From the IMG/VR virus record IMGVR_UViG_3300046170_000511, positions 1-24,349 of that record: a stretch of DNA of 24,349 nucleotides, one strand, 5' to 3'. The DNA is from a virus. This document shows positions 107-17,539 of this stretch, one piece after another (the stretch's first letter is position 1; the number at the start of each line of letters is the position of its first letter). The notes under the pieces are model-generated. The model ran no database searches. It had not been told where the DNA came from and was given only the letters and a program-made list of their open reading frames with translations. The translations under genes and the position numbers were made by a program.

Positions 107-907
107 TTAAATAACAATCCATTCTTCAGGCCTAACTGTTTGATAATCGACATTATTCCCATACCAAACTTTTGGTGAGACGACTTTTTTTTGTGGATTT
201 TGATTGAGCCACGCCCCCATCCAACTGAAAGAACTATTAGCTATTATGTTATTGTGGCACATAGTCATTAGTTTTAAATCATCTATATTCGAATTGTTTT
301 CCATAAAAATCATATTTTCAAATTCAAGGTTTTGCTTGCACCACGCGATATCATCAGAAAATACAAATAAATTACCTTTAGGTTTTATTATCTCTAAAGC
401 TTTTTGATAATATGTAATATCTAAAACAGGATGATAGCCATTCGATTTTAAATAGTCTCCTCTCCTGACATGTAAAGAACAGGAGTCTGTAAAGTCAAGA
501 TTATGATTTAAATCTAAATCTAAGCAAGATATAATTTCGCTTCTATAATCTTTTATGTATTTTTCGTTCTGCCAATAACCATCAAAATAATAAAAAAATT
601 TTTTATCATATTCAATTTGTATAAAAGACCCATTGGACGGTTCTTGTATAAATTTTTGAGCCCCGTCTCGATACGCTTTAGAATGAAATTGATCTATTGC
701 ATCTTGAGTTAGTATTGGAATTTTTATATTTAATAAGTCAGGCAAACAAAACTCTCTAGCATCTGTATATCCCACGCGATTAGCTCCGCTAGTATAAAAA
801 CTAATATCATAATAATCTTTAACACCAAATCTTTTAGATAATGAGCGGCCAAAAGCCCATTGAAATAATTGATTACAAAGGCCACCTTGCATTTTTATAA
901 TAATCAT
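107..907 (-). CDS. GT11-family glycosyltransferase (alpha-1,2-fucosyltransferase-like)
   Basis: This 266-aa protein has the hallmarks of CAZy family GT11. The N-terminal MQGGLCNQLFQWAFG (residues 6-20) matches the family's GGLGNQLFQ start. HVRRGDY at 146-152 is the GDP-fucose-binding motif. FSDD lies at 183-186, and NSSFSWMGAWL at 224-234 is the family's NSSFSWW block, with Met in place of the second Trp. Known members transfer L-fucose from GDP-fucose to galactose in alpha-1,2 linkage. The length is slightly short for GT11 but complete. No signal peptide or membrane segment is visible, so it should be cytosolic. It starts 2 nt after the stop of the GT4 gene and is followed by gmd, which would supply the GDP-fucose route. 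Acceptor and exact linkage cannot be read from sequence. Confidence 0.88.
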   Translation of the reverse strand: MIIIKMQGGLCNQLFQWAFGRSLSKRFGVKDYYDISFYTSGANRVGYTDAREFCLPDLLNIKIPILTQDAIDQFHSKAYRDGAQKFIQEPSNGSFIQIEYDKKFFYYFDGYWQNEKYIKDYRSEIISCLDLDLNHNLDFTDSCSLHVRRGDYLKSNGYHPVLDITYYQKALEIIKPKGNLFVFSDDIAWCKQNLEFENMIFMENNSNIDDLKLMTMCHNNIIANSSFSWMGAWLNQNPQKKVVSPKVWYGNNVDYQTVRPEEWIVI

Positions 908-909
908 TT

Positions 910-2022
910 TTAAAAGATTTTTTTTGAAGCATCTTGTAATATTTTAATAATTTTTTCTATTTGAGAATCTAGAGAGTATTCTTTTTTATATCTTTCGTAG
1001 GCTAACTTTGATTTTTCGCAATAATATTTTTTTTCATTTTTTAATTTCAACATTTCTAAAGAATAACCTTCTATATCGGACCTAGAAAAACATTTCCCAG
1101 AATCACCTATGACTTCAACATGTCCATTTGCGAAAGACGTGTGACTTATGCAAGGTTTTTTGTGATACATGGCTTCTGTAAAAACAGCGCCAAAGGTTTC
1201 TCCATCGTTTCTGCCGTGACTAAAAACATCTATCGTTTCTAAAAACGAATGTATCGCATCAGAATCACCTGTATGCGGTAATGATATGAAATTTTTTAAA
1301 CACAATTCTTTAGCTTGATTATTATAATCGTCATGCCCGCCTAATAAGATGAAGCAAGTATCATCAGTTTCGATTTGCTTATACGCATTAAGAGGTACTT
1401 CTGAGAACAAGCCACTTGAATTACGTTGGTGAAATCCGTAGACGAACTTATCACTGACGCCTAATTCCTCACGCATATTCGTGAATGGTGGTTCTGGCAT
1501 TTCTTGGATAACTGGCACAATCTCTAATCTACTAGCGTCACCACCCTGTTTAATCCATTGTTGACCGCACCAGTTGGTTATGTGGAATGATTTAAATATA
1601 TTCCTTTGATTATCTACACCAGCATTTAGCGCTAAGATATTGATTAATGGTGTTTTAGTTATCATGTGAAATGGGAACTCTGGGTGGCCAGCTCTACCCC
1701 CAAGAACAACATCGTAATTATCTTCACTAAATAAGTCCCATAAGTTAGTGTTAACCCATGGATGTAACCTATCTCTAACATCCTTGAATTCAACTTCCAC
1801 CTTAATTAAGTTAACATTCTTACTCTCCATATATTTCTTTCTATCTGGGTCCGTATCTGGATGTTGCCAGTCAGAACCCAAATATGGTGCAGCATCTGTA
1901 TAGTAGTAATCAACCTCAAATATATCTTGTGGTAAATTACCAGCTATTGCATGTAAAAATCTTTCTGTACCACCAGCAGAAAGTCCACCAAATTTTATAA
2001 ATGCAACTCTTATCTTATTCAT
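910..2022 (-). CDS. GT4-type (GT-B) glycosyltransferase
   Basis: This 370-aa protein has a two-Rossmann GT-B layout. The N-terminal FGGLSAGGTERFLHAIA (11-27) is the GG-x-E/R loop usual in GT4 enzymes. The C-terminal GETFGAVFTEAM (274-285) is the EX7E element that binds the nucleotide-sugar donor; it is followed by a conserved-looking CISH..FANGHVEVI stretch. GT4 members are retaining enzymes using UDP- or GDP-sugars; donor and acceptor here are unknown. No membrane segment is seen. The ATG overlaps the end of the upstream GT2 gene by 8 nt, indicating translational coupling. The C-terminal third (about 910-1400) is visibly richer in poly-A/T runs than the N-terminal half, so the gene may be mosaic. 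Confidence 0.85.
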   Translation of the reverse strand: MNKIRVAFIKFGGLSAGGTERFLHAIAGNLPQDIFEVDYYYTDAAPYLGSDWQHPDTDPDRKKYMESKNVNLIKVEVEFKDVRDRLHPWVNTNLWDLFSEDNYDVVLGGRAGHPEFPFHMITKTPLINILALNAGVDNQRNIFKSFHITNWCGQQWIKQGGDASRLEIVPVIQEMPEPPFTNMREELGVSDKFVYGFHQRNSSGLFSEVPLNAYKQIETDDTCFILLGGHDDYNNQAKELCLKNFISLPHTGDSDAIHSFLETIDVFSHGRNDGETFGAVFTEAMYHKKPCISHTSFANGHVEVIGDSGKCFSRSDIEGYSLEMLKLKNEKKYYCEKSKLAYERYKKEYSLDSQIEKIIKILQDASKKIF

Positions 2023-2866
2023 TTCTCAAATTGTTTATATCTGCAACATGCCAAATGTTTAAATCTTTAAAATAATCTAAACCATGATGTTTTATCCATT
2101 CTTCAATCTCTTTTATTCTCCATAATGTGTTTTGATATATTTTATCCAAATCAGGAAGAACAACTCCTTCGTACCACTCTTCTGGCGCTTTTCTTAAATG
2201 ACAATTTTTATCATCAAGAGTTATAGAATAAGTTTTATTTATTTGTCCTATAGACTTATTTGGATTACTGACCCTTTCTAAACATCTATACCAAGATTGT
2301 TTAATTTGAAAGGCTTCCCATGAAGAAAATTGAAAATGAAAAACACCCCCAATATCAGTAGGAATTTGTTTTGTAGGTTTTACTATTGGTAATCTAGGCT
2401 CATGAATCCAGTTTCCTGAATAATTGATTTTACCATCATCGCAAATTATAAAATCCTTAAAACTATTAGACCAAGCACTATTGTCTTGTCTGTATTCGTA
2501 TAAAGATTTCCACATTGGAAGCCAATGTAAAGTGCATCTCTCTCCTGGTTTAATTGATGATGCAATGATATCAAAATTTTTTATTGCATTTGCTGTAAAA
2601 GCTTCGTCAGCATCTAATCCTACAATATGAGTAGGAGAGTATTCTCTAGCTAAATTAAACAAATGAGACCTCTTAGAACCCCAGCCATCATTATTCTTTA
2701 ATTCTACAATTTCTATTTTATCATATTTCTTTAATAACTCTACTGAATTATCAGTTGAGCCATCATCTAAAACAATGACTTTATCGCAAACTTGTGTGGC
2801 TGATGAAGCAAAAGAATCAATAAAAGCTGATTCGTTTTTTATTGGCGTAATTCCAACTATTTTCAT
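2015..2866 (-). CDS. GT2-family glycosyltransferase
   Basis: This 283-aa protein has a GT-A fold of the GT2 type. It opens with a beta-strand and donor loop (VGITPIKNES, 4-13). DDGSTDNS at 34-41 is the nucleotide-binding motif, and GLDADE at 83-88 contains the DxD metal site. The remainder, rich in Trp and His (for example GNWIHEPRLP), is presumably acceptor-binding. Similar proteins are annotated as glycosyltransferases of the WaaE/KdtX type, which act in the cytosol on LPS or other glycans. The substrate cannot be inferred. The start codon overlaps the stop of the methyltransferase-sulfotransferase gene by 4 nt (ATGA), and its own 3' end overlaps the GT4 gene by 8 nt, so the three genes are translated as a coupled set. 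Confidence 0.85.
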   Translation of the reverse strand: MKIVGITPIKNESAFIDSFASSATQVCDKVIVLDDGSTDNSVELLKKYDKIEIVELKNNDGWGSKRSHLFNLAREYSPTHIVGLDADEAFTANAIKNFDIIASSIKPGERCTLHWLPMWKSLYEYRQDNSAWSNSFKDFIICDDGKINYSGNWIHEPRLPIVKPTKQIPTDIGGVFHFQFSSWEAFQIKQSWYRCLERVSNPNKSIGQINKTYSITLDDKNCHLRKAPEEWYEGVVLPDLDKIYQNTLWRIKEIEEWIKHHGLDYFKDLNIWHVADINNLRNE

Positions 2867-4080
2867 AATGAATTGTAAATTTTTATATCTTCTTTATATA
2901 ACCCTTCAATCTTTGACACAAACTTATCTTCTTTTAGAAATTTTAATAACTTTTTTTTGACAGCATTATTACTTGTTCGATTTAAATTAGGAGCCTTTCC
3001 AAGACCAAGGTCTTTAGATAATTGGTCTAAATTTTCCATTTTATAAATCTTAAACCTATCATCATTATTCAAATAAAAAGATTGAGGGAATGTATGAGGT
3101 TCAAAAAAGCCGTTTTCTATAATATATTCGGTAAAAGACTTAAACTTTTCTATATCATCTAATATTTTATTGATATTGTCCAAATCGTTTATTACATCAT
3201 TTGACAAATTTAAATTATGATGATATCTACACTTTGGATAATCTGGAGCTGGGTACATGACTTCAATGAAGCCAGAAACGTATCTTTCTACAGGCTCTCT
3301 TATTACAGTAAAACCATTATAATCTTCTGGTATATCTGTATCTGAAAGAGTGTTGCACCCAGTGAAAACTCTTAATGTAGTTGATGCACATTTGGGTATT
3401 CCTAAAAACCCTAACTTTCTATCATGATTATACCATATTACAATATCAGCGTTTGCCATTTTATTTTTAAATTTAAACAATCCAAAACCAGTCTCATGGC
3501 ACCAATTTCCCATACTATACTTTTCTCCTTCCCACTCTTCGTAAAATCTTCCTTTATCATTTAATTTTATATCATCCATAAAGATTATAGAATTATTTTT
3601 TAACTTATTTTTATAGGCTTTAAATTCACTATCAACTTGCTTGTAATAATGAATAGTATCTGAAAACAAAAAATCTATTGACTCATTTTCAAATAACGAA
3701 ACTATGCCATCACTAACACAATCACCATAAATGACATTTACTCTACCATCATCAAAGAAAGATTTTGGCATAACACGAAGATCTTTTATTATATCTATTG
3801 TATAGAATTTTTGATTATCCTTTAAGGCATCATATATGGCCAACGTGCTCATTCCCTCTCTGTTGCCCAATTCAACTATTATCGCATCATCTGGTAGGCT
3901 TTTAACTACATTGTGAATTAATGTGAAATAGCCATGAACCTTTCCTTTATTGGGAAAAGTTTCATTGTTTAGGTAAGACTTTAGTGCGGGTTCAATCGCA
4001 TTTAAATGCTCCTTGTGAGCCGTCCATTTAATCGTTGGATTGTTTTTTGTTTTTTCTATTAAATTTTTTAAGTTTGTCAT
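2863..4080 (-). CDS. Fusion: SAM-dependent methyltransferase + sulfotransferase
   Basis: This 405-aa protein has two catalytic-looking halves. Residues about 45-205 form a class I methyltransferase: motif I is IIVELGNREGMSTLAI (67-82), the acidic strand-2 end is TIDI (94-97), and FLFSDTIHYYKQVDSEF plus IIFMDDI follow, as in the Methyltransf_24/cephalosporin-hydroxylase-like group. Residues about 222-405 resemble a carbohydrate sulfotransferase. LGIPKCASTTLR (226-237) is the 5'-phosphosulfate loop of PAPS-binding enzymes, and FTVIREPVERYVSGF (257-271) is the 3'-phosphate motif. The likely activity is methylation and O-sulfation of a glycan or its precursor (inference). The gene follows the GT2 gene by 26 nt and overlaps the next GT2 by 4 nt. 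No frameshift or stop separates the halves. Either half could be catalytically altered; that cannot be judged by eye. Confidence 0.8.
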   Translation of the reverse strand: MTNLKNLIEKTKNNPTIKWTAHKEHLNAIEPALKSYLNNETFPNKGKVHGYFTLIHNVVKSLPDDAIIVELGNREGMSTLAIYDALKDNQKFYTIDIIKDLRVMPKSFFDDGRVNVIYGDCVSDGIVSLFENESIDFLFSDTIHYYKQVDSEFKAYKNKLKNNSIIFMDDIKLNDKGRFYEEWEGEKYSMGNWCHETGFGLFKFKNKMANADIVIWYNHDRKLGFLGIPKCASTTLRVFTGCNTLSDTDIPEDYNGFTVIREPVERYVSGFIEVMYPAPDYPKCRYHHNLNLSNDVINDLDNINKILDDIEKFKSFTEYIIENGFFEPHTFPQSFYLNNDDRFKIYKMENLDQLSKDLGLGKAPNLNRTSNNAVKKKLLKFLKEDKFVSKIEGLYKEDIKIYNSL

Positions 4081-4106
4081 GTTGTATGTATTTTTGGATT
4101 GGCTTT

Positions 4107-4913
4107 TTATTGGGTATTGATGTAATTAGTGTATTTGGTTTTTTTTTGAAAACTAGTGATATTTTCAACATCATATTCCATGGCTTTATCCATGAATATA
4201 TGACATCTTTCACGATCTATTTTATCATGAATACCATATCTAACATAAATGAATGTCTTCTCTATTGGTTGTAAATCACCGCTCGTACTAGCGCCTTTCC
4301 CTTCGTCTAGATAATAACCGCCATTACCCTCCGAAAACATCACATCGCCATTATGAGCTAATCTAATAGCGAAGTCAAAATCAGCGCCAGATTTAAGTTG
4401 CTCATCAAAGTATCCAGCTTTGAGACATATTGATTTTCTGAACATAAAGAATGGCCCTAAAACCATTCCTCTCTTATATTCTGATTCATCATATTTTCTA
4501 TGGTCAATCTGTCTGCCAGCTTTAGCTCCAAATGAATTAACTATTTGAAAATTGGTGTTGACGATATCCACACCTTCATTTTCATCTAACACTTTCATTT
4601 GACTTTCAAGTGATTCTGGGGTTCTTAAATCGTCTATATTCCAAATCGTTAAGTATTCGCCAGAAGCTTCCTTAATGCATGTGTTCATTGAAACACCGAT
4701 TGGGTCTACTGGTTTTGTAATGATATGTTTGATAACACCATCTGGGTATTTCTCAATATATGATTGAACCAGTTCCACTTCCCAATCTTCTGGGTCGTTA
4801 TGATCTAACACAACTTCGAAGTTTGGGAATAGTGTTTGTTGTTCTAATTCTTCTAAGAACTTTGGGAGATATTCTCCCATCTTATAGCATGGTGTAATTG
4901 TACTGACTTTCAT
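4107..4913 (-). CDS. GT2-family glycosyltransferase
   Basis: This 268-aa protein is a GT-A glycosyltransferase. VSTITPCYKMGEYLPKFLEE (3-22) is the classic GT2 start. NIDD at 92-95 occupies the DxD position, and an acceptor-side block with GADFDFAIRLAHNGD follows, where the Asp cluster is probably the catalytic base region. The closest functional label is 'GT2, substrate unknown'. The last 20 residues are basic and of low complexity. Upstream lies the 50-codon FkbM remnant, whose TAA ends 6 nt before this ATG. The octamer TATAAATA at 4921-4928, 7 nt before the ATG, equals the T4-type late-promoter core but also overlaps the remnant's end, so it may be coincidence. Confidence 0.83.
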   Translation of the reverse strand: MKVSTITPCYKMGEYLPKFLEELEQQTLFPNFEVVLDHNDPEDWEVELVQSYIEKYPDGVIKHIITKPVDPIGVSMNTCIKEASGEYLTIWNIDDLRTPESLESQMKVLDENEGVDIVNTNFQIVNSFGAKAGRQIDHRKYDESEYKRGMVLGPFFMFRKSICLKAGYFDEQLKSGADFDFAIRLAHNGDVMFSEGNGGYYLDEGKGASTSGDLQPIEKTFIYVRYGIHDKIDRERCHIFMDKAMEYDVENITSFQKKTKYTNYINTQ

Positions 4914-4919
4914 ATTCTT

Positions 4920-5072
4920 TTATTTATAAAACAAAACGTCCCTCTGAAAAACTTCACCTTTCTGAAATAGTCCATGGAACTCACCAACATTAGCACCAAT
5001 ATCTAATATTTTCTTAGGTTTAAACCCTTGATTACTTAACTTTACTAATCTGTTTTTAACTCCGCTACTCAT
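4920..5072 (-). pseudogene. FkbM-family methyltransferase remnant with internal deletion
   Basis: This 50-codon reading frame starts with an ATG overlapping the stop of the adjacent SDR gene (ATGAGTAG). Its first part, KPKKILDIGANVGEF (18-32), is the SAM-binding motif I of FkbM methyltransferases. Its last part, GEVFQRDVLFYK (39-50), resembles the C-terminal strand with which FkbM enzymes end. The roughly 150-200 residues expected between them are missing, yet the frame stays open. The simplest explanation is an in-frame internal deletion that joined the two ends of a once full-length gene. It cannot be an active methyltransferase. An intact FkbM gene lies at 7614-8237, so homologous or replacement gene turnover in this cluster is plausible. 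The motif-I match is strong; the C-terminal match is short and less certain. Confidence 0.65.
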
Positions 5073-5856
5073 GTTTAAACTCTTTTACCATTCTTGTTAA
5101 GCCTTCTTTTAGGAAAACACTTGGCTCCCAACCAGGAACAAAGTCTTTATTATCGATTAATAGACTATCACCTAATTTTTCACCCCTGACAACCTTACAA
5201 TCTGTAATTTCACTTATTAGAAGCGCTAAATCAATTAATTTAACCCACTCACCAGTTGATAGATCATATGTCTTGCTCCTGTCCTTAATGTCAAATGCTT
5301 TAACTAACCCATTACACACATCGTCTATGTGAATATATTGTCTAAATTCTTCACCCATTGTGAGCATGTTAATTTCCTTATTAGTCATTGCTTGAAATAT
5401 GAAGTCAGAAACTACATGACTTCTTTCTGTGAAATCCTCATTATAACCGTAAATGTTCCATAGCCTAACAGCTATACCATGCTTTGATAGTTTGGTCCAC
5501 ACTTCACCCATTTGTTTCTGTACACCATAAACAGTGTCAGTAACATCTGCTAATTGGGATGAAATAAACACAAACGGAATATCCATGATTTGTTTAAACA
5601 CATTAAGCATTAACTCATTATTCCATGTCATTTGTGTTTCTTGACTACCCTCTTTGTAAAGATATTTAGAACCACCAACATCCCACGCTAAGAAATAAAC
5701 TCTATTAACACCGTCTAATGGTAATTCTCCAAGCCTAGCGTCTTGCGTAACACTATTCTTTATATCATATTCTATAACTTGATCCCCAAGGTCTCTTAAG
5801 TGCCTACATAACTGCGTACCTAAGAAACCTCCAGAACCTATTACTAAATTTTTCAT
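5065..5856 (-). CDS. NAD(P)-dependent epimerase/dehydratase (extended SDR)
   Basis: This 263-aa protein is an extended short-chain dehydrogenase/reductase. GSGGFLG (7-13) is the dinucleotide-binding GxxGxxG. ISSQLADV (98-105) supplies the Ser of the catalytic triad, and YGVQK (110-114) is the YxxxK pair. QYIHIDDVCNGLVKAF is the usual C-terminal signature of sugar-nucleotide epimerases. At 263 aa it is shorter than GalE (about 340), with an unusually short segment between the first strand and the active site. It probably modifies an NDP-sugar in the cytosol. The ATG shares one base with the stop of the upstream SDR (TAATG), and a GAGG at about 6 nt from the ATG is one of few Shine-Dalgarno-like sites in the window. 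Substrate unknown. Confidence 0.83.
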   Translation of the reverse strand: MKNLVIGSGGFLGTQLCRHLRDLGDQVIEYDIKNSVTQDARLGELPLDGVNRVYFLAWDVGGSKYLYKEGSQETQMTWNNELMLNVFKQIMDIPFVFISSQLADVTDTVYGVQKQMGEVWTKLSKHGIAVRLWNIYGYNEDFTERSHVVSDFIFQAMTNKEINMLTMGEEFRQYIHIDDVCNGLVKAFDIKDRSKTYDLSTGEWVKLIDLALLISEITDCKVVRGEKLGDSLLIDNKDFVPGWEPSVFLKEGLTRMVKEFKHE

Positions 5857-6782
5857 TATAACCTCGCTTTATACCATTCAATAGTCTTACTTAGACCTTC
5901 TTTGAATGTGTGAGTCTTAGTCCAGCCTAAGCCTTTTAATTTATCAGCCGACATATATTGGAATGGAATCTCAATAAAGTCCTTATCAGCAATTTCATAC
6001 CCACCTTTATATTCCATTATTTCTGAGATAATTTCTACTACTTCTTGAATCGTATAGAATTCACAATCACCAATATTGTAAATCTCACCTGGAACACCGT
6101 TATCAGCCATTAATAGGTAAGCGTCAACTACATCTTCAATGAAAACAAATTCACGTTTGAATTCTAATACCCCAGAATAAATCCTAGGCTTCGTTCCGTT
6201 CTTAATATTTCTAATCGTGTTTGGTATAATCCTAGATAAGTTCATATCTCTAGGGCCGTAGATGTTAGCACATCTAATCACATTCACGTTTAAGTTATAT
6301 GTTTTGTTGTAGGATTGTGCGATTAAGTCAGAACATGCTTTGGATGTTGAGTATGGGTCATCTGGCTGTAATTTCATATCCTCGGTATACGGTAATTTAT
6401 CGTGAGTACCATAAGCTTTATCAGATGAAGCCATAACCACTTTAATTAAAGGATTAATCTTTCTGACTCCATCCAATATATTAATCGTACCTATGACATT
6501 ACTCATATAACAATTTAATGGATTCTTATCAGCAATCTTAACAATTGACATTGCAGCTAGGTGATAGATTAAATCAACCTCATAATCGGCAATAACCCTA
6601 TCAATGAGTTGCGTATTAGTTATATCGCCATATATAATAGTACATTTATCTAAGATATCTTTTTGGCTCTTTCTGTTGATATCCCTAACGATTCCAATTA
6701 CATTGTTACCTCTTTCTAATTCTCGTTTGGCTATCGAAGACCCAACAAAACCGTTTATACCTGTTATTAAAACATTCTTCAT
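5856..6782 (-). CDS. Extended-SDR NDP-sugar 4,6-dehydratase-like enzyme
   Basis: This 308-aa protein has TGINGFVGSSIA (7-18) as the NAD-binding turn, YGDITN at 51-56, HLAA at 74-77 and the YSTSK catalytic pair (Tyr144, Lys148). The triad strand reads ASSDKAYG (118-125). A Ser-Asp-Lys at this place is typical of CDP-glucose 4,6-dehydratases, whereas RmlB has Thr-Asp-Glu and GMD has Thr-Glu. NIYGPRD (193-199) and REFVFIEDVVDAYL follow, as in the dehydratase/epimerase superfamily. The likely role is making a 4-keto-6-deoxy sugar nucleotide, with the neighbouring 263-aa SDR as a possible next step (inference). It is tightly coupled on both sides, with a 4-nt ATGA overlap to the upstream GT-B gene. 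A 4-epimerase activity cannot be excluded. Confidence 0.8.
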   Translation of the reverse strand: MKNVLITGINGFVGSSIAKRELERGNNVIGIVRDINRKSQKDILDKCTIIYGDITNTQLIDRVIADYEVDLIYHLAAMSIVKIADKNPLNCYMSNVIGTINILDGVRKINPLIKVVMASSDKAYGTHDKLPYTEDMKLQPDDPYSTSKACSDLIAQSYNKTYNLNVNVIRCANIYGPRDMNLSRIIPNTIRNIKNGTKPRIYSGVLEFKREFVFIEDVVDAYLLMADNGVPGEIYNIGDCEFYTIQEVVEIISEIMEYKGGYEIADKDFIEIPFQYMSADKLKGLGWTKTHTFKEGLSKTIEWYKARL

Positions 6783-7621
6783 AATAAGTTCATTATTGTT
6801 AAAATATTATTTGTAGCTTTCTCTATTGATAAATTTTCCATCACATATTCCCTTGGTTTATAATTTGACAGATTCTCGGTTAAGTCATTATAAGCTTTTT
6901 CTAAATCTTCGCCATTGTCAAAATTAATACCACATCTTTCGTCCCAGTAAGGTATTGAGGTTGCCTTAATCTTGTATTTTTCACCTCTATCAACCCAATG
7001 AGTTACATCCCAAACTAAAAGTGGTAAATTACAACTCATCATTTCTTGAATTGCTATACCCTGACTTTCTGTGTTGTCTAAAATTATTCCATATTTGCTT
7101 TTTGTAATAACGTCTATAAATTGAGCCTCATTATATTTCCCGTATTCCACAAGAACAAAAGATTGTTTTTTTTCTTTTAAAAAATTTTTGATTATATTTA
7201 ATTCTTCAGAACTTCTTCTTTTGAAATAAATTAAACAGTCGTTAGTTTTTTCATTATTAGATTTGTCAGAAAAAAGGTCGGTATCTATACCAACCGCCCA
7301 AGTGCATATTTTCTCTGCTGGTATCCATTTTGAATAAAGATTTTTAACCCATTTGGAGGGGACGATAGTTTTTTGATATTTCTGTTCCATCATTATCCTG
7401 TCATCAATAGGTAGAACACAGATGTTTGGCCCTACAAAAGAATTGTTTATTAGATTCGATTGAATAGAATTGTGTTTATTTAAAAATACTGTAACAAACC
7501 CATTTTTTGGGTTCGGATCATTGTGAGAATAATTAACCCCCAAGGATTCTAAACCTTTTTGTAGGTTATTATAGACTTTTTGTGGGCCCATAGAGCAATG
7601 ATTATAGCAAAGATTAATCAT
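6779..7621 (-). CDS. GT-B glycosyltransferase, probably GT4-like
   Basis: This 280-aa protein has no strong N-terminal motif, but TIVPSKWVKNLYSKW (84-98) and the adjacent KICTWAVGIDTDLF are the linker and second-Rossmann entry found in GT4 and related GT-B enzymes. The later block, LDNTESQGIAIQEMMSCNLP, corresponds to the EX7E donor-binding element in a divergent form, with Glu before SQG and Glu before MMS. At 280 aa it is short for GT4 (350-400), with a reduced N-terminal domain. No membrane segment is visible. It is coupled by an 8-nt overlap to the FkbM gene upstream and a 4-nt overlap to the SDR gene downstream. Donor and acceptor are not predictable. Confidence 0.72.
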   Translation of the reverse strand: MINLCYNHCSMGPQKVYNNLQKGLESLGVNYSHNDPNPKNGFVTVFLNKHNSIQSNLINNSFVGPNICVLPIDDRIMMEQKYQKTIVPSKWVKNLYSKWIPAEKICTWAVGIDTDLFSDKSNNEKTNDCLIYFKRRSSEELNIIKNFLKEKKQSFVLVEYGKYNEAQFIDVITKSKYGIILDNTESQGIAIQEMMSCNLPLLVWDVTHWVDRGEKYKIKATSIPYWDERCGINFDNGEDLEKAYNDLTENLSNYKPREYVMENLSIEKATNNILTIMNLL

Positions 7622-8237
7622 TTTGTTTTATGTACAAAGCATCCCCCCATTCGTATTTAGTCATTGCTGTTGCAACTCGTTTAAATTCATACTTTTCTAA
7701 ATATTCATCTATTTGCGAAACCAACGCACAATCTTTATACAAAAAATTAGTATTTACTTCTGTGTAAATATATTTGACTGATCGCAAGCAATCACCGAAA
7801 CCTTTTAATGCTAAAAGTTCCGCGCCTTGGATATCGATATTAACAAAATCATAATCTTGAATGTTAATAGAGTTCTCTTTAATTAAAGTGTCGATTCTGC
7901 TTGATTTCACTTTTATGGTTTCAGTCACATGTATATGCGGATGATGGGTTTTGTGTAAATCCAGATCTAGTATTGAGCTAGATTCTCCATTATTAGTTAT
8001 ATTGAAATCGTAAATTTTATTATCTACATCTGAGACCGCACATCCAAAAACACTTTCCAGAGGAGATGTTAATGATTGATTGCGCTTAACAAGTTCAGGG
8101 TTGGCTTCGATCCATATAATGTCCTTAATGCCACTCGCTAGATAATCTTCGCGCTCTTCCATTTTGTGAGCGCCAATATGGATGATCCCTTTTGGCTTTC
8201 CGTATTTAGCTACTATATCTTTGAATTTTATTAACAT
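7614..8237 (-). CDS. FkbM-family SAM-dependent methyltransferase
   Basis: This 207-aa protein is complete. IIHIGAHKMEEREDYLASG (18-36) is motif I. IWIEANPE (41-48) holds the acidic residue at the end of strand 2 that binds the ribose of SAM. DFVNIDIQGAELLALKG (130-146) is the FkbM signature, IYTEVNTNFLY follows, and EWGDALYIK closes the fold. Family members O-methylate sugars or other small hydroxylated groups; in a glycan cluster, sugar O-methylation is likely (inference). The ATG overlaps the preceding GT25 gene by 7 nt and the stop overlaps the GT-B gene by 8 nt. A deletion-collapsed relative sits at 4920-5072. Confidence 0.88.
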   Translation of the reverse strand: MLIKFKDIVAKYGKPKGIIHIGAHKMEEREDYLASGIKDIIWIEANPELVKRNQSLTSPLESVFGCAVSDVDNKIYDFNITNNGESSSILDLDLHKTHHPHIHVTETIKVKSSRIDTLIKENSINIQDYDFVNIDIQGAELLALKGFGDCLRSVKYIYTEVNTNFLYKDCALVSQIDEYLEKYEFKRVATAMTKYEWGDALYIKQND

Positions 8238-8869
8238 TGGTAATTTACGAACCTTTTTTCTAAGTCACTATAATCTGCGCGCTGATAGCCGCATCTTTTT
8301 AATTGAAACCATTTATTATCTTGTGTTTGAAATTTCTTCCAGGCTTGATCGTATGCAAATAAGGAATGACAACCTTCTTTGGAGAGTTGCTCGATAGACT
8401 CTTTGATGTGAGTTATAATTTTTTTTGCAAAATTAATTTTTATAATATAAGCGGATGCAGTCTGAGAATTGTCGCAAAAGTAAACTAAACCTGAGTCATC
8501 GAGTTGGATGGCTGGTTTTATATTATTATAGCTTATTTGACATAAGTTAAAATCTGCAAAGTTTTCAGTGAAATAATTCCACCTGGAATTAAATTCAAAA
8601 GAATCTACCAAAGGATAAAAGTCGTCTTCTAAAATTAATACATAATTATAGTTTTTTGCTATAGCCTCTTCGAGCACTCCTAGATGAGACTTTGCGCAAC
8701 CAACACTCCTCGAAGAGAGAGTTTTTTCGTGCGAAGTATTTACTCCAGAAAATCTAGTATACTCTTCCTTAGAGAAACCGAAAAAAGGCATTACCTTATC
8801 TTTCATCACTTGATTCCTATCAGTTCTGTGATCAAGATTTATATAATAACAATGGTTTATAAGTTTCAT
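8231..8869 (-). CDS. GT25-family glycosyltransferase
   Basis: This 212-aa protein matches GT25 (LPS-type beta-galactosyltransferases and collagen galactosyltransferase relatives). CYYINLDHRTDRNQVM (7-22) is the family opening. GCAKSHLGVLEEAI (57-70) is the conserved GC-x-SH block, and VLILEDDF (77-84) carries the acidic EDD metal/donor site. The C-terminal SLFAYDQAW has the late Asp usually conserved. Members use UDP-galactose or UDP-glucose and act in the cytosol on lipooligosaccharide. The gene starts 1 nt after the stop of the GT31-like gene. Its ATG lies behind GGGTAAC, not a convincing ribosome-binding site, so coupling probably drives translation. Confidence 0.87.
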   Translation of the reverse strand: MKLINHCYYINLDHRTDRNQVMKDKVMPFFGFSKEEYTRFSGVNTSHEKTLSSRSVGCAKSHLGVLEEAIAKNYNYVLILEDDFYPLVDSFEFNSRWNYFTENFADFNLCQISYNNIKPAIQLDDSGLVYFCDNSQTASAYIIKINFAKKIITHIKESIEQLSKEGCHSLFAYDQAWKKFQTQDNKWFQLKRCGYQRADYSDLEKRFVNYQC

Positions 8870-8870
8870 G

Positions 8871-9527
8871 TTACCCTATTAAAGCTGAGGCGACAGCCAT
8901 GTCCTCGCAGCCCCCCATTAAGTTTTTAAATTTTTGAAATAATTTTTTTTGAGCAATAACTTTTTGTATAGATTTTTGCCCTAAACAATAACAACCACCA
9001 GCCCAATAGTTCGTAGCCCATTTGCTTTCTCCTATTTCAGAGATTAAAACTTCTGGCATAACAAAGAGTTTTTTTGATGAAGCCCAATTTCTAAATTGTT
9101 CGACAGTATTTCCTTGAATTGGAGTCAACCCATTATATTCACCAAAAACTCCTTCGTTATAAAATTTTTTCAAAAAATACTCAAAAGAAAACAACATGCT
9201 AGTTTTATTATGGCGATTTTTAATTATATTACTATCTATTTTAAGTAAATGATCAAAATCAAAGAGTTTGCTGCATGCATCTATCATGTTATATGTTTTC
9301 ATACATAGATTATCGTAAGATTCTTCAGTTTTTAAAGTTAAAATATTATTTTTAAAAGAATACTCTTCTTTGATTGAGGGATCTGCCAGAACTTCAATAA
9401 TTTCAAAATTATCTCTAGAAGACACATCTTTAAACCAATCCGTGTCCTTTAATTCTGCGACAGATTCAGCGTCTTGTGCGCAAGTATAAATGCACACTAA
9501 TATTTTACTTGTGGATAAAGTAGACAT
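8871..9527 (-). CDS. GT31-like glycosyltransferase, possibly C-terminally short
   Basis: From the ATG at 9527 this gives 218 aa. The frame is open further upstream, but only to a GTG at 9656 that would overlap the preceding gene by 152 nt. The ATG at 9527 is preceded by AAAGAGAAG and overlaps by only 23 nt, so it is preferred; an ATG at 9539 is the alternative. The protein has features of Galactosyl_T/GT31: ESYDNLCMKTYNMI, then LLKIDSNI at the DxD position (here DSN, so degenerate), YWAGGCYCLGQKSIQKV (the family's GGGY..S block), and EDMAVASAL at the EDV catalytic-base motif. The protein ends two residues after this block, whereas typical members continue. Probable role: transfer of a hexose to a glycan. 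The degenerate metal site and short end lower confidence in activity. Confidence 0.65.
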   Translation of the reverse strand: MSTLSTSKILVCIYTCAQDAESVAELKDTDWFKDVSSRDNFEIIEVLADPSIKEEYSFKNNILTLKTEESYDNLCMKTYNMIDACSKLFDFDHLLKIDSNIIKNRHNKTSMLFSFEYFLKKFYNEGVFGEYNGLTPIQGNTVEQFRNWASSKKLFVMPEVLISEIGESKWATNYWAGGCYCLGQKSIQKVIAQKKLFQKFKNLMGGCEDMAVASALIG

Positions 9528-10260
9528 CTTCTCTTTCATTTTGGTATTGTTTAAATTCACTACAAACAGGTTCGCCCATAATAAAATTTTTATCTTTAAA
9601 TTGTGATCTAAGTAAATACTGGCAAAGCCACATATCTGAATTAAATTCTGGAACACCCATAGATTCCCTAACCTCTACAAATTTAGAATAAAAGTTAGAC
9701 ATGTCTTCATGAGTTCCGCCAACTACTCCCATATTAATTAAATCCCACGAATCAATGTTTAGCATAAACATCATTTTATCCTCGAAATTAAATTTGTCAT
9801 GAACATTTAAATAATCGCCAAAATGCTTAAGCTTAATGCTGTCTTTACATGCGAAGTAAGATATGTCGGGATGATCCTTGATTAAGTTCACTGGGTTCTT
9901 TACAACCTTTACATCTGAAGCATCAGCATGAAAAACGTAATTAAATTTATTCTCTTTTAAAAAATCATTGAAACAAAAAAACCGATAATCATTATTTGAG
10001 TATTCGAAGTCTCCTACTTTTATAAATTTTATATCTTCTGTTGTATATTGCTCAACAAAAGCGTCAGAAAGATTATCGTGAAATATAAAACCTTTTAATT
10101 TTAATTTATCAACTGATTCATACCAAGGTTTAATGTATTCAATTTCATTGTTCTGCACTTTACCATCCGCAGCCCTTCCTACGACATAAGCATCAGTTGG
10201 GCTATTTGGGTGTTTCTTTTTAGAAAAATAAGAAGTTAGAATAGCTATTGAATCTGACAT
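9505..10260 (-). CDS. GT-A-fold glycosyltransferase-like protein, first gene of the glycan operon
   Basis: This 251-aa protein has an N-terminal strand and donor loop (IAILTSYFSKKKHPNS, 5-20). FHADASDVKVVKNP (110-123) is a DxxD acidic motif where GT-A enzymes bind metal and nucleotide. NMGVVGG (176-182) is the usual acceptor-loop block, and the C-terminus ends YFIHK, reminiscent of the His-Lys ending of metal-dependent galactosyltransferases. It most resembles phage and bacterial proteins annotated only as glycosyltransferase-like. It is the promoter-proximal gene of the sugar cluster, lying 36 nt downstream of the terminator of the previous operon. TATAAT lies 6 nt before the ATG. Family-level identity is uncertain; the GT-A assignment is by motif pattern. 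Confidence 0.62.
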   Translation of the reverse strand: MSDSIAILTSYFSKKKHPNSPTDAYVVGRAADGKVQNNEIEYIKPWYESVDKLKLKGFIFHDNLSDAFVEQYTTEDIKFIKVGDFEYSNNDYRFFCFNDFLKENKFNYVFHADASDVKVVKNPVNLIKDHPDISYFACKDSIKLKHFGDYLNVHDKFNFEDKMMFMLNIDSWDLINMGVVGGTHEDMSNFYSKFVEVRESMGVPEFNSDMWLCQYLLRSQFKDKNFIMGEPVCSEFKQYQNEREDVYFIHK

Positions 10261-11267: not shown

Positions 11268-11813
11268 TTATTTTATTCTAATTTCTTTCCAGCCTACTTT
11301 TTTGTCTTTGATTAAATCCCTTACTCTTCTTTGATTATTGTTTAATTGACTGTTTCCGCTTTTTACTTCTATAAAGGTAATTTCTTCTTCGCCGAATGAT
11401 ATATAATCTATGGGTTTTCCTAAAAATGTACAAGCTTCTGGATCGAATTCAAATTGATCGAGGAAAGGAGCTAGAGTTTCTGCGATATGGCCAAGCCTTA
11501 CTTCGCTACTCTTTTTTTGTGATGTGACTTTCTTTTTTGCTTCTTTTTCTTTAGCTAATTGTATTTCTAAATCATTTAAAGTTAAAACTATACCTTTCTC
11601 TTTTTTATCTAATTCAATTTTTCGTTCTTGAATAATTTCTTGTTCACGTTTTAATGATGCGTTAAGTTCAGATATTGTTGTATTTAATTGATCCTCTCTA
11701 GTTTTTAATAATTTATTTTCAGATGATAATAAACTGACGTTGTTTTTATATTGAGATTGAAAGTATAAACTTGCTATTAGTATAATTATAGATATAAAAG
11801 CGATAATTTCCAT
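11268..11813 (-). CDS. Membrane-anchored Holliday-junction-resolvase-like endonuclease (Endonuc_Holl-like)
   Basis: This 181-aa protein has an N-terminal transmembrane segment (MEIIAFISIIILIASLYF, 1-18). A Lys/Glu-rich coiled coil covers about 25-105, and a compact nuclease domain covers about 105-181. The nuclease part matches the Pfam Endonuc_Holl family (related to archaeal Holliday junction resolvases): APFLDQFEFDPEACTFLG, then PIDYISF with Asp136, then FIEVKSG with Glu149 and Lys151, a standard PD-(D/E)xK core. The C-terminal RVRDLIKDKKVGWKEIRIK matches the family end. It should cut branched or damaged DNA at the membrane. The TM-plus-coiled-coil layout is seen in cellular members too. 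It starts 7 nt after the stop of the upstream gene. Confidence 0.82.
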   Translation of the reverse strand: MEIIAFISIIILIASLYFQSQYKNNVSLLSSENKLLKTREDQLNTTISELNASLKREQEIIQERKIELDKKEKGIVLTLNDLEIQLAKEKEAKKKVTSQKKSSEVRLGHIAETLAPFLDQFEFDPEACTFLGKPIDYISFGEEEITFIEVKSGNSQLNNNQRRVRDLIKDKKVGWKEIRIK

Positions 11814-13887: not shown

Positions 13888-14919
13888 TTATATCATTGAT
13901 ATAGAAATCATGTTTGCAAAATTAACACCATTTTTGTTCACTAAGTCAAGGTCTGGATGCATTGCGCTGAGAAAAAAGTTTTGTGGGAAATGTTCGGCAA
14001 GATAATATTTATTTTCATATGCAATCTCATCATACAACGGAAATAAAAAACTTCCATCGAGCATAGAAAAGTCTAAATAATTAATTAATTTATTATTTGG
14101 AGGGTTTTTAAATTTTATTGTAGTTGTATTATCTATTTTATTGACTTCATCAATAACTAATTTAATTTTAGAATCTGTGTCTTGTATTCCTGTTTCTGCG
14201 TAAATTAATTTACTGTTGTTATTAACGCTGAAAGATTCTGAAATATTTAGAGATGGCGCGGAATCAATTGACCTAAAATACTTTGTGATATCTGTCGAAT
14301 TATCGGGAGATCGAAAAGTTATGATTTTTAATCTTAAAAAATCTGATAATTCTTTTTTTATGTTTTTATATTGCTTCTCAAGTGCCGTGGATATAATTGC
14401 ATAATTCTTTGTTATGCAAATTTCATTCAAAGAAATTTTTTGAGGTAAGTAAGTAAAGTAGGTAATCTGGTCAGGCTGATTAAATAATTGTCGGAAGTCT
14501 GTTAGATACTCTTCATGCATAAAACTATCAGATTGGGGGCAACTAATTAATTCTTGTCTGTTTCCAGTTTGGTAAAATAAATAATTTCTTGGGTTCAGAT
14601 TTAGATGTCTAATTTCATAATGATCAGGAGTATTTATAATAAGTCTGTAATCTTCAACTACATATTTTTCAGTTATTTTCAAAAACTTGTGGGGCGTAAT
14701 AACTTTAACTTTAAATAAATATTCTAAAGTCCCACAAAGATGATTAAATAATTCTATATATCTTCTTTTAATGTCGTCATTTTTAAACTGAATACAATAA
14801 GGCGTAATAAGTGAAGCTATTTTTTGATGATCTAATTTTTGATAATCATGAGACAAATTTTCATCTCTGAGGGAAATTTTTAATCTGATTAAATCAAAAT
14901 CTATTAAAGGTTTTGCCAT
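13888..14919 (-). CDS. Unknown phage protein
   Basis: I do not recognise this 343-aa protein. The frame could begin with a TTG at 14925, but the ATG at 14919 is preferred. Visible features: an N-terminal helix-rich part (to about residue 110), a middle section with many Ser/Asn/Ile and aromatic residues, and a C-terminal portion with LDGSFLFPLYDE and LAEHFPQNFFLSAMHPDLD. No signal peptide, TM span, nucleotide-binding loop or metal motif stands out. It lies 14 nt downstream of the UvdE-like gene and in the same operon, so the two may act together. The stop is 14 nt from the -35 of the downstream promoter. Confidence 0.65.
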   Translation of the reverse strand: MAKPLIDFDLIRLKISLRDENLSHDYQKLDHQKIASLITPYCIQFKNDDIKRRYIELFNHLCGTLEYLFKVKVITPHKFLKITEKYVVEDYRLIINTPDHYEIRHLNLNPRNYLFYQTGNRQELISCPQSDSFMHEEYLTDFRQLFNQPDQITYFTYLPQKISLNEICITKNYAIISTALEKQYKNIKKELSDFLRLKIITFRSPDNSTDITKYFRSIDSAPSLNISESFSVNNNSKLIYAETGIQDTDSKIKLVIDEVNKIDNTTTIKFKNPPNNKLINYLDFSMLDGSFLFPLYDEIAYENKYYLAEHFPQNFFLSAMHPDLDLVNKNGVNFANMISISMI

Positions 14920-14933
14920 ATTCAAAAACTTAT

Positions 14934-16037
14934 CTAGAACCCGTATATCGAGTTGAAGCCGCTACCACCTTTAGTTTCAAGAGCTTCTTTAATCTTTTTA
15001 TGAGCAATATCAATTTCTGTTTCGTTAATCTCGCTATCGTCAATCTCAACTTTAACTGAGAGCAAGTCATCAAAACTGCTAAGATTAAGGTTTTCATCTT
15101 TTATGACGACACCTTTCATTTGAAAAATATTCTGATCGCTATTAATACCGCAACATATCCACCCTATGTCCTTTCCAAAAGACGGTATTTCTTTCGAAAA
15201 AGCATCATCTAAAGGTTCTTCATCCCAAAAGAAGCAAGGTGTATTATTTTCTGGCCAAGTGTGTTTAAAAGCTTCGACATTCTGCTTATCAGAAACTTCT
15301 TTCCCTCCAATAACAGAAGGGTTTAATTTGTGATTTAAGTTGTTATAAACTAAAGGAAAAAACTTACCATATTCTCCACCACAATAAAGATGAAGCCATT
15401 TAAATAAATTTTGACAATTCCAGCAACCTTCTTTTTCGTTTGTAACTGAAACTCTTGATTGAGAAGATTCTGGTAGGTTTTCAAAAGAATTATAAAATTT
15501 ATCAATTACGTTTTTTAATTTTAGCTCTTCCGACTCATTAACAGAATTATTCACCTGTATAATAATCGGTGATTCCAATCCTTGATCTAGCTCAAATAAA
15601 TCAAAAATTGTAGACCATAAATTAATTAAATTTAAAGATTTTTTAATAGTTGTTTCTGTGCCTGATAATAGAACTTGCTTTCTTAACTCGACACAAATTT
15701 TAACATTAAATTTTCTAGCTATAATTCCTATTTTTTTAAGTTCTTTTATTATTGATTCATAATCAGCGAGATCTTTAATGGAGCAAGGGATCGAATCATC
15801 ATGCAATAAAGGAATTAAGTCGTTGAAGATAGAATATAGTTTAATGTTATTTTGGGCACAAAATTTAATATGGTTTTGAGCACATATTGCATTATGCATT
15901 ATGATTTGGCTAAGCTCCGAGATAGCTTCATTCAAAGGTTTTGCATTAAAAGCTTTCTTAGATAAACTTCTAAAAGAGTTTTCGCTAGACGATTGAGATA
16001 AAGTAGAGCTCGAGCTTAGTAAACCATAAGTATTCAT
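14934..16037 (-). CDS. UvdE-like TIM-barrel protein with lost active-site residues
   Basis: This 367-aa protein follows the order of a UV-damage endonuclease (UvdE/UVDE). IKFCAQNNIKLYSIFNDLIPLL (57-78) matches the 'NI-x-x-YR-S-S-D-x-x-P' block, and LADYESIIKELKKIG (90-104) follows. KICVELRKQVLL (113-124) sits where the family has 'HPG/HPD-Q'. NVIDKFYNSFENLPESSQSRV (176-196) and then VSVTNEKEG correspond to 'F-x-x-L-P-E-x-x-x-SRL-ENDD'. TWPENNTPCFFWDEE (260-274) matches 'TWP-x-x-x-P-x-HYS-E'. The catalytic His/Glu/Asp residues are replaced: HP to EL, IH to IQ161, ENDD to TNEK, YHHH to NLNH, HYSE to FWDE. It is therefore probably inactive as a repair nuclease. A Cys-rich stretch (CWNCQNLF at 205-212, CGG, ICCG) is extra. 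Family recalled from memory, no alignment run. Confidence 0.6.
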   Translation of the reverse strand: MNTYGLLSSSSTLSQSSSENSFRSLSKKAFNAKPLNEAISELSQIIMHNAICAQNHIKFCAQNNIKLYSIFNDLIPLLHDDSIPCSIKDLADYESIIKELKKIGIIARKFNVKICVELRKQVLLSGTETTIKKSLNLINLWSTIFDLFELDQGLESPIIIQVNNSVNESEELKLKNVIDKFYNSFENLPESSQSRVSVTNEKEGCWNCQNLFKWLHLYCGGEYGKFFPLVYNNLNHKLNPSVIGGKEVSDKQNVEAFKHTWPENNTPCFFWDEEPLDDAFSKEIPSFGKDIGWICCGINSDQNIFQMKGVVIKDENLNLSSFDDLLSVKVEIDDSEINETEIDIAHKKIKEALETKGGSGFNSIYGF

Positions 16038-16055: not shown

Positions 16056-16361
16056 TTAAAACAAGTTATCAGGGACTTCATCTTCAGAGCCTACAGAAGC
16101 TGCTACTGCTTGAGGTTCAACTTGTTGACTTTCTGTAACATTGTTAGGTTTAGACTTATAGATGATTAAGTCTGGAGCCCTTTCATTATCTTTTTTATTT
16201 TTGTTAGCAAAAATAACAACTTTATGGACGACTTCTTGACCAAGCTCTGTAGTCTTGAAGTGCCCTGTTAAATAGTCGGTATTACCGCTTTTGCGCCAAA
16301 GTGCCCCCATTTCTCTGGAAGACCACTCAGTAGAAGTTTTTGATTTATTTTCAGTATTCAT
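16056..16361 (-). CDS. Small SSB-like/DUF736-like protein, first gene of the leftward operon
   Basis: This is a 101-aa protein from the ATG at 16361. The frame is open to a TTG at 16397, but that would lie inside the promoter's -35 box, so it is rejected. The core (REMGALWRKSGNTDYLTGHF followed by VVIFANKNKKDNERAPDLII) follows the 'GALW-x-K ... G-x ... F-x-NK-x-K ... APD-x-x-I' pattern of small DUF736-type proteins, which have an OB-like look. The C-terminus is low complexity, then acidic and ends DEVPDNLF, similar to the acidic-aromatic tail of bacterial SSB that recruits partners. Binding of ssDNA is likely but unproven. It is first in its operon, behind a perfect TTGACA / TATGAT promoter. 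Confidence 0.65.
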   Translation of the reverse strand: MNTENKSKTSTEWSSREMGALWRKSGNTDYLTGHFKTTELGQEVVHKVVIFANKNKKDNERAPDLIIYKSKPNNVTESQQVEPQAVAASVGSEDEVPDNLF

Positions 16362-16368
16362 GTTTATG

Positions 16369-16397
16369 ATCATAATGCATATTAAGTAATTTGTCAA
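16369..16397 (-). promoter_or_regulatory. Near-consensus sigma70 promoter, leaderless geometry
   Basis: Minus strand: TTGACA at 16392-16397, a 17-bp spacer, then TATGAT at 16369-16374. The -10 lies 7 nt before the ATG at 16361, so the expected transcription start is at or next to the start codon. It sits at the edge of the 16362-16477 divergent region and should drive the leftward operon. Confidence 0.87.
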
Positions 16398-16792: not shown

Positions 16793-17539
16793 ATGTTAAA
16801 TGTTAAAAATACTGATAATATAACACATTTGTTTAAAAAAAATCAACCATTTGTTTTAAGTCATGATTTTGGATTGAGTGAAATTATCAACGTTGATAAA
16901 ATATTAAAAGATTATGGAGACCTTAAAGTTATTGTACCAGAGATAGTAGAGGGAGGTCAGTTATCAAATTTGCAAGAAATAAATCGTATAGAGATAACTA
17001 TAGAACAATATGTTAAAGAATATATAAACAAAAAAAATAACAAATATTACCTGCGTTCAGAAAATCCTTTTGGATTTGTACAACCTGAGAAAATTTTAAA
17101 ATTAGAAAAAGAAATTATTAATAAGTATAATTTTGGTAAAGTAGGAGATATATCATTATGGTGGGGAGGGAAAGGTACTACCACTCCTTTACATTACGAT
17201 TCCTATAGCTATAAAATCGACAGAACCCTTAAGCAGATTCATAAAGAAAACTTCTATAAAAAACCAATAGCTCATTCTTTGTTAAGTGTTGTGAGTGGCA
17301 GCAAAGAGGTATTGTTAATTAGCCCTCAATACAATGAATTAATAGAAAATTTAGATTTAGATCATTCTGGAGCCATGTATTCTAAGACAGAGATTTCAAA
17401 AATTTTAATTAAAAATAATATAAAACAAAATATAATAATATTAAATGAAAACCAAAGTTTAAATATACCTAGGTTTTGGTGGCATAGAATAAATAATATA
17501 AAACAAGGAATTTCAATAACTTATAATTTTAAACTATAG
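16793..17539 (+). CDS. Cupin_8/JmjC-type Fe(II)/2-oxoglutarate dioxygenase-like protein
   Basis: This 248-aa protein has the facial triad of a JmjC/cupin_8 hydroxylase: GTTTPLHYDSY with His134 and Asp136, and IPRFWWHRINN with His231. SVVSGSKEVLLISPQY (165-180) is the beta-strand that carries the 2-oxoglutarate-binding Lys region in FIH-like enzymes. WWGGKG at 123-128 precedes it. Known relatives hydroxylate Asn, His or Arg side chains in proteins (FIH, ribosomal-oxygenase type). The cytosolic substrate here is unknown. Its position directly before the tail-tip genes suggests a phage structural protein as a possible target (inference). The stop TAG overlaps the next gene's start-proximal motif. 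The start has no Shine-Dalgarno; the previous stop is 3 nt away. Confidence 0.83.
   Translation: MLNVKNTDNITHLFKKNQPFVLSHDFGLSEIINVDKILKDYGDLKVIVPEIVEGGQLSNLQEINRIEITIEQYVKEYINKKNNKYYLRSENPFGFVQPEKILKLEKEIINKYNFGKVGDISLWWGGKGTTTPLHYDSYSYKIDRTLKQIHKENFYKKPIAHSLLSVVSGSKEVLLISPQYNELIENLDLDHSGAMYSKTEISKILIKNNIKQNIIILNENQSLNIPRFWWHRINNIKQGISITYNFKL

Follow-up and report, generated by a model that had tools for sequence, protein, structure and literature searches.

The window, by which we mean the whole stretch of 24,349 nucleotides analysed here, is a 24-kb viral contig. Its minus strand carries an ORF of 367 aa with an ATG start (14934-16037), which we named UvdE2. The genes and features around it are:

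16369..16397, minus strand: sigma-70 promoter-like sequence TTGACA-17-TATGAT (11/12) before c3-UvdE2, a consensus match only
16056..16361, minus strand: c3, DUF736-like, 101 aa, directly upstream of UvdE2, with an acidic C-terminal tail
14934..16037, minus strand: UvdE2, 367 aa, a UvdE paralogue without the metal ligands (by profile, fold and ligand alignment)
13888..14925, minus strand: 345-aa protein with no assigned function, the next gene after UvdE2

UvdE2 is found directly downstream of c3 in the window and in most UvdE2 loci. c3 is present in 32/40 genomes, many of them without UvdE2, which rules it out as a strict UvdE2 partner; it was not found in G018 and G021, the genomes that carry the UvdE2 copies L107 and L108. 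A first-pass annotation had placed UvdE2 in a strongly expressed operon beside an SSB-like protein. The 11/12 site just upstream of c3 is a strong match to the sigma-70 consensus and not a measure of expression. The SSB assignment was dropped, since c3 matched no SSB family profile and its model, of modest confidence (pLDDT 67), gave no PDB fold match at E<=0.001 and no OB-fold match; 11/15 c3 members match DUF736 instead, weakly (best 1.9e-5). The c3-UvdE2 unit belongs to a conserved gene cluster that also encodes nucleoside deoxyribosyltransferase-like, dCMP deaminase, dUTPase and Holliday-junction-endonuclease-like proteins (the dUTPase is what we take it to be from its sequence). Among the compared loci, the 345-aa gene is found only in the window sub-clade (L008, L009, L105 and L106).

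Other genes of the neighbourhood were recorded as well. A dCMP deaminase gene (9103-9519) directly follows UvdE2 in L008, a 203-kb relative, and is absent from that place in the window. The window gene at 11268-11813 (minus strand) encodes a coiled-coil protein that is anchored in the membrane and bears an Endonuc_Holl domain (PF10107, E=2.7e-23); it is conserved in 18/19 loci. A Cupin_8/JmjC-like putative oxygenase is encoded at 16793-17539 (plus strand), flanked by the c9 and tail-tip genes, among the compared loci only in window-type phages (L008 and L009). About 10 kb of the minus strand (107-10260) is occupied by genes for glycosyltransferases (GT11, GT25 and GT1-like), an FkbM methyltransferase and sugar epimerases, which suggests phage-encoded glycosylation; within it, a gene at 2863-4080 (minus strand) fuses a methyltransferase (PF13578) with a sulfotransferase (PF03567).

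The UvdE2 phages are uncultured, about 200 kb in size and known as metagenomic contigs. UvdE2-bearing contigs combine a lambda-type tail tip with UvsX, DnaB-like helicase, clamp loader and rIIA genes. The jumbo-size G008 (193.8 kb), for example, carries T4-type genes (UvsX and rIIA) and a lambda-type tail tip (phrog_18 minor tail protein and Prok-JAB). No cultured relative was found, and a phage collection gave only distant matches to the canonical UvdE (at most 30% identity). The phages are apparently marine, as judged from the closest named fold match, a virus record with the marine-style name NIOZ-UU157.

The window protein matches Pfam UvdE (PF03851) at 40.2 bits (cut-off 24, E=3.1e-10) over residues 25-267, and NCBIfam UvsE at E=9.5e-15. 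A profile of UvdE2 aligns with the profile of phage canonical UvdE across 311 columns (1.8e-65), and the window protein is 29% identical to the canonical UvdE of its own phage. AlphaFold, given a 53-row alignment, produced a model with pLDDT 85.7 and pTM 0.82, in which a tail from about residue 311 is poorly modelled (low pLDDT). In a Foldseek search of the PDB the nine best matches of the model were all UVDE chains (E 1e-14 to 1e-12), the best of them superposing with a TM-score of 0.8 by target length (E 1e-14). The earlier description of a UvdE-like TIM barrel was thus confirmed by profile and by fold, and the protein is, on the modelled structure, a TIM barrel of the UvdE fold. A single-sequence search of the PDB with the window protein gave no match, nor did searches of INPHARED phages and GTDB genomes. 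Orthologues with intact ORFs and 83-100% identity occur in eight further IMG/VR records, so the ligand loss described below is not a sequencing error in the window.

The metal ligands of UVDE, which we take to be H101, H143, E175, D200, H203, H231, H244 and E269 in the numbering of the Thermus enzyme (2J6V), are invariant (8/8) in 48 canonical UvdE proteins from phages, bacteria and archaea. This list agrees with that invariance and with the PDB titles for the E175A and K229 mutants. The window protein has 0/8, with H244 falling in a gap and the other positions changed as follows:

15687..15689, minus strand: E117 at Thermus H101 (ligand alignment)
15555..15557, minus strand: Q161 at Thermus H143 (ligand alignment)
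15441..15443, minus strand: T199 at Thermus E175 (ligand alignment)
15333..15344, minus strand: N232..N235, both ends Asn, at Thermus D200 and H203 (ligand alignment)
15228..15230, minus strand: F270 at Thermus H231 (ligand alignment)
15150..15152, minus strand: C296 at Thermus E269 (ligand alignment)

Compared with the canonical paralogue, the blocks HPDQF, NIH, IENED, FDNLHH and FHWSE read ELRK, IIQ, VTNEK, YNNLNH and FFWDE; the substitutions named in the first-pass annotation, to which every catalytic block appeared to have been lost, are therefore real. Fisher tests of ligand columns against other invariant columns in the window sequence were no more than suggestive (p of about 0.05-0.08), the invariant columns being few. 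Gln104 and the aromatic residue at 105 (Tyr105) are the damage-probing positions of the Thermus enzyme. The window protein has K120 and Q121 there, and Gln104 is replaced by K, G or S in 19/19 UvdE2 proteins.

Across these 19 proteins the number of ligands kept is graded from zero to four of eight. L107 and L108 retain 4/8 (H101, D200, H203 and H244) together with the changes E175D and E269D, and some metal binding may persist in them, as judged from the residues kept. L110-L116 have 1-2/8 with H143 retained, while L109, L117-L121 and the window group have 0/8. A rearranged site made of H79, D80, E117, H236 and D272 may exist in the window protein; most of these residues are not conserved across the clade. 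We infer from the alignments that UvdE2 is without catalysis.

The phages that carry UvdE2 also carry a canonical UvdE. Three contigs bearing window orthologues have one with a PF03851 match of about 1e-32 to 1e-36, and near-identical or 83% identical orthologues of the window protein lie on contigs reaching 194 and 203 kb. Relatives of the canonical UvdE were collected from 45 loci. A second UvdE-like gene of the window kind was found on 9/42 further contigs searched, and a further profile search raised the number of distinct second copies to 19. A canonical UvdE is present in 7/7 UvdE2 contigs of at least 125 kb; many phages have the canonical UvdE without UvdE2. In a tree built with the ligand columns excluded, the 19 UvdE2 proteins form one clade (SH-aLRT 97; bootstrap 100 and SH-aLRT 96 in a second tree), and its sister group is the phage canonical UvdE. 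A long stem leads to the window group, whose exact place within the clade is therefore unsure.

UvdE2 is under strong purifying selection: where dS could be estimated, dN/dS was 0.03-0.05 in UvdE2 versus about 0.1 in canonical pairs; for the window/L008 pair dS is close to saturation. A decaying pseudogene is ruled out by this ratio and by the intact ORFs throughout. The conservation in related phages, together with the UVDE fold and the absent ligands, upholds the earlier pseudoenzyme call, and the sequence comparisons support UvdE2 as a conserved, putatively non-catalytic UvdE-fold paralogue in phages. Since the site is lost yet the gene is tightly kept, UvdE2 probably has another job.

Compared with canonical UvdE, UvdE2 has 15 conserved positions of its own. 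Several lie on helix 208-223, LFK[YW][FL]H[VL]Y, and on helix 250-258, N[VI][GE]AF[HK], both outside the barrel mouth by the secondary structure of the AlphaFold model. The C-terminus is a new helix plus tail.

15384..15407, minus strand: LFKWLHLY, residues 211-218, a motif on a helix whose conservation sets UvdE2 apart from canonical UvdE
14937..14957, minus strand: FNSIYGF, the C-terminal motif of the UvdE2-specific tail (about residues 311-367)

The tail motif [FY]N[AS][LI]Y occurs in 19/19 UvdE2 proteins, with N362 and Y365 invariant; the window protein ends in FNSIYGF and the other UvdE2 proteins in FNALYD or YNALYE. The canonical UvdE of the same phages has no such NALY tail. Among 837 frames of at least 100 aa in four genomes or near-genomes, the motif ends two, both UvdE2, which excludes a genome-wide targeting tag in that set.

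In many phages without UvdE2, a protein of 102-194 aa is encoded at or near the UvdE2 place. A short domain at its N-terminus is followed by a charged stretch resembling a coiled coil and by a C-terminal motif. Of the small proteins near c3, 24/24 have [FIL]N[AGS][LI]Y followed by two last residues, and for 22/24 c3 is located no more than about 1.5 kb upstream. Pfam and PHROGs hold no family for them. In this uncharacterised family (L173-L196, e.g., L187:4001-4411), one Asn and one Tyr close to the C-terminal end are invariant. Its first 34 residues resemble the start of UvdE2.

15936..16037, minus strand: N-terminal segment, residues 1-34, common to UvdE2 and the small proteins (hhalign P=2.3e-4)

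The hhalign value comes from one comparison (probability 44%); canonical UvdE gave only P=0.1, at another place. The homology between small proteins and UvdE2 rests on these 34 columns and the five-residue motif, and an HMM of the whole small protein did not find UvdE2. In the loci examined, no small protein was detected in UvdE2 loci and no UvdE2 in small-protein loci (some are contig fragments, where absence counts for little). Two near-complete contigs, G036 and G043, have neither. Mapping the two states on the canonical-UvdE tree takes about six changes, and they are as scattered as shuffled labels; the count is made on a gene tree that possibly recombines, and the starred branches force only two changes.

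Three facts that the first-pass annotation could not draw on alter the picture of the window protein: a canonical UvdE elsewhere in the genome, a graded clade of second copies, and a small protein at the same locus with the same C-terminal motif. That related phages place a similar tail peptide on a far smaller protein at this locus suggests reuse of the dead copy as a carrier or adaptor. The reading we favour, with slightly better than even confidence, is that UvdE2 is a non-catalytic phage adaptor or scaffold whose barrel carries the tail peptide. The phage UvdE lineage would have split once into the canonical form, which retained the metal site, and UvdE2, from which the metal ligands and damage probe would have disappeared stepwise and in which a flexible C-terminal helix and a tail ending in [FY]N[AS][LI]Y would have been gained. 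The barrel may dock one component via the conserved helices after strand 5 and before strand 7, and the tail peptide may engage another, so that UvdE2 would act within the conserved c3-UvdE2 gene unit of the nucleotide- and DNA-metabolism cluster. We infer the adaptor role, in which the tail peptide, as the working part common to both forms, would do the binding. UvdE2 would give way, in related phages, to the coiled-coil-like protein, which has no barrel, begins in a similar way and ends in the same tail; either the barrel was lost in some lineages, or the tail and start were acquired by recombination. A wider version, which we hold tentatively and below even chances, is an adaptor with a NALY tail and an interchangeable body, either a gutted UvdE barrel or a coiled coil that keeps the first strand region and tail of UvdE2. 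A repair enzyme would then have become a peptide carrier and later been stripped of its fold, with repeated swaps among phages.

The match between the two tails may instead be convergence or chance, with UvdE2 a pseudoenzyme in an unrelated role. The motif is five residues long and the N-terminal homology is modest, which leaves room for this. It is unlikely given that the motif otherwise ends none of the 837 frames, is C-terminal in all 24 small proteins at the same locus, and is accompanied by an N-terminus that matches UvdE2 and not canonical UvdE.

UvdE2 may also be a regulatory subunit that binds and tunes the canonical UvdE of the same phage, by analogy with the prozyme of AdoMetDC. Solved UVDE enzymes act as monomers. 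The joint presence of both copies in all seven long UvdE2 contigs would fit such a role, but canonical UvdE often occurs without UvdE2, keeps 8/8 ligands with or without it, and is encoded at a distance from it (at about 40 and 72 kb in G008); moreover, a barrel-less protein takes the place of UvdE2 at the same locus. We give this reading a low probability, although dead paralogues that activate a live one are documented, the trypanosome AdoMetDC prozyme being a dead paralogue that tunes the active enzyme (PMC5201418).

Somewhat less probable again is a protein that binds DNA lesions without cleavage and so marks UV damage or shields it. In favour are the fold, which belongs to an enzyme that recognises lesions, and the place of the gene in a cluster with dUTPase, dCMP deaminase and the Holliday-junction-endonuclease-like protein. 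On the other side, the damage probes are lost or altered (Gln104 in all 19), UvdE2 is acidic (pI 4.8-5.6 versus 5.2-7.6 in the close canonical phage set), and the protein that replaces it has no barrel. The binding of DNA damage or of a host nuclease proposed in the first-pass annotation gained no support. Both the tuning of canonical UvdE and lesion binding account less well for the barrel-less counterpart than an adaptor would. It is improbable that UvdE2 is an enzyme acting on another substrate through a new, rearranged active site, with or without metal: TIM barrels often change chemistry and L107/L108 and L110-L116 keep some ligands, but the window sub-clade retains none, the clade as a whole shares no new set of polar residues around the barrel mouth, and most of the newly conserved positions sit on outer helices and in the tail.

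In the literature searched, no description of a phage pseudoenzyme of the UvdE family was found. In the UvdE2 clade, nature provides the stages between an active metal site and none at all, and a control is at hand in the live paralogue of the same genome. If UvdE2 and the small protein bind one partner via the same tail peptide, the barrel would be a mere carrier. There is also a warning for annotators, who would label UvdE2 genes as UV-damage endonuclease because they pass the Pfam UvdE cut-off.

Among known systems, UvdE/UvsE (PF03851; Thermus 2J6V, Sulfolobus 3TC3/4GLE) shares its fold and the order of conserved blocks with UvdE2, which differs in the missing catalytic ligands, the changed probe residues, the extra C-terminal tail and its own conserved helices. 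The canonical UvdE of the same phages (P0002, L021-L063) is the sister clade in the same genomes, and differs in having 8/8 ligands, a location elsewhere in the genome and no NALY tail. The TIM-barrel AP endonucleases of the Endonuclease IV (Nfo) type are a distant fold match to the window model (3AAM, E=4.6e-4), far weaker than UVDE, and the window protein is without a metal site. The AdoMetDC prozyme (PMC5201418) is, like UvdE2, an inactive paralogue kept beside an active one; unlike the prozyme, UvdE2 is replaceable by a small barrel-less protein.
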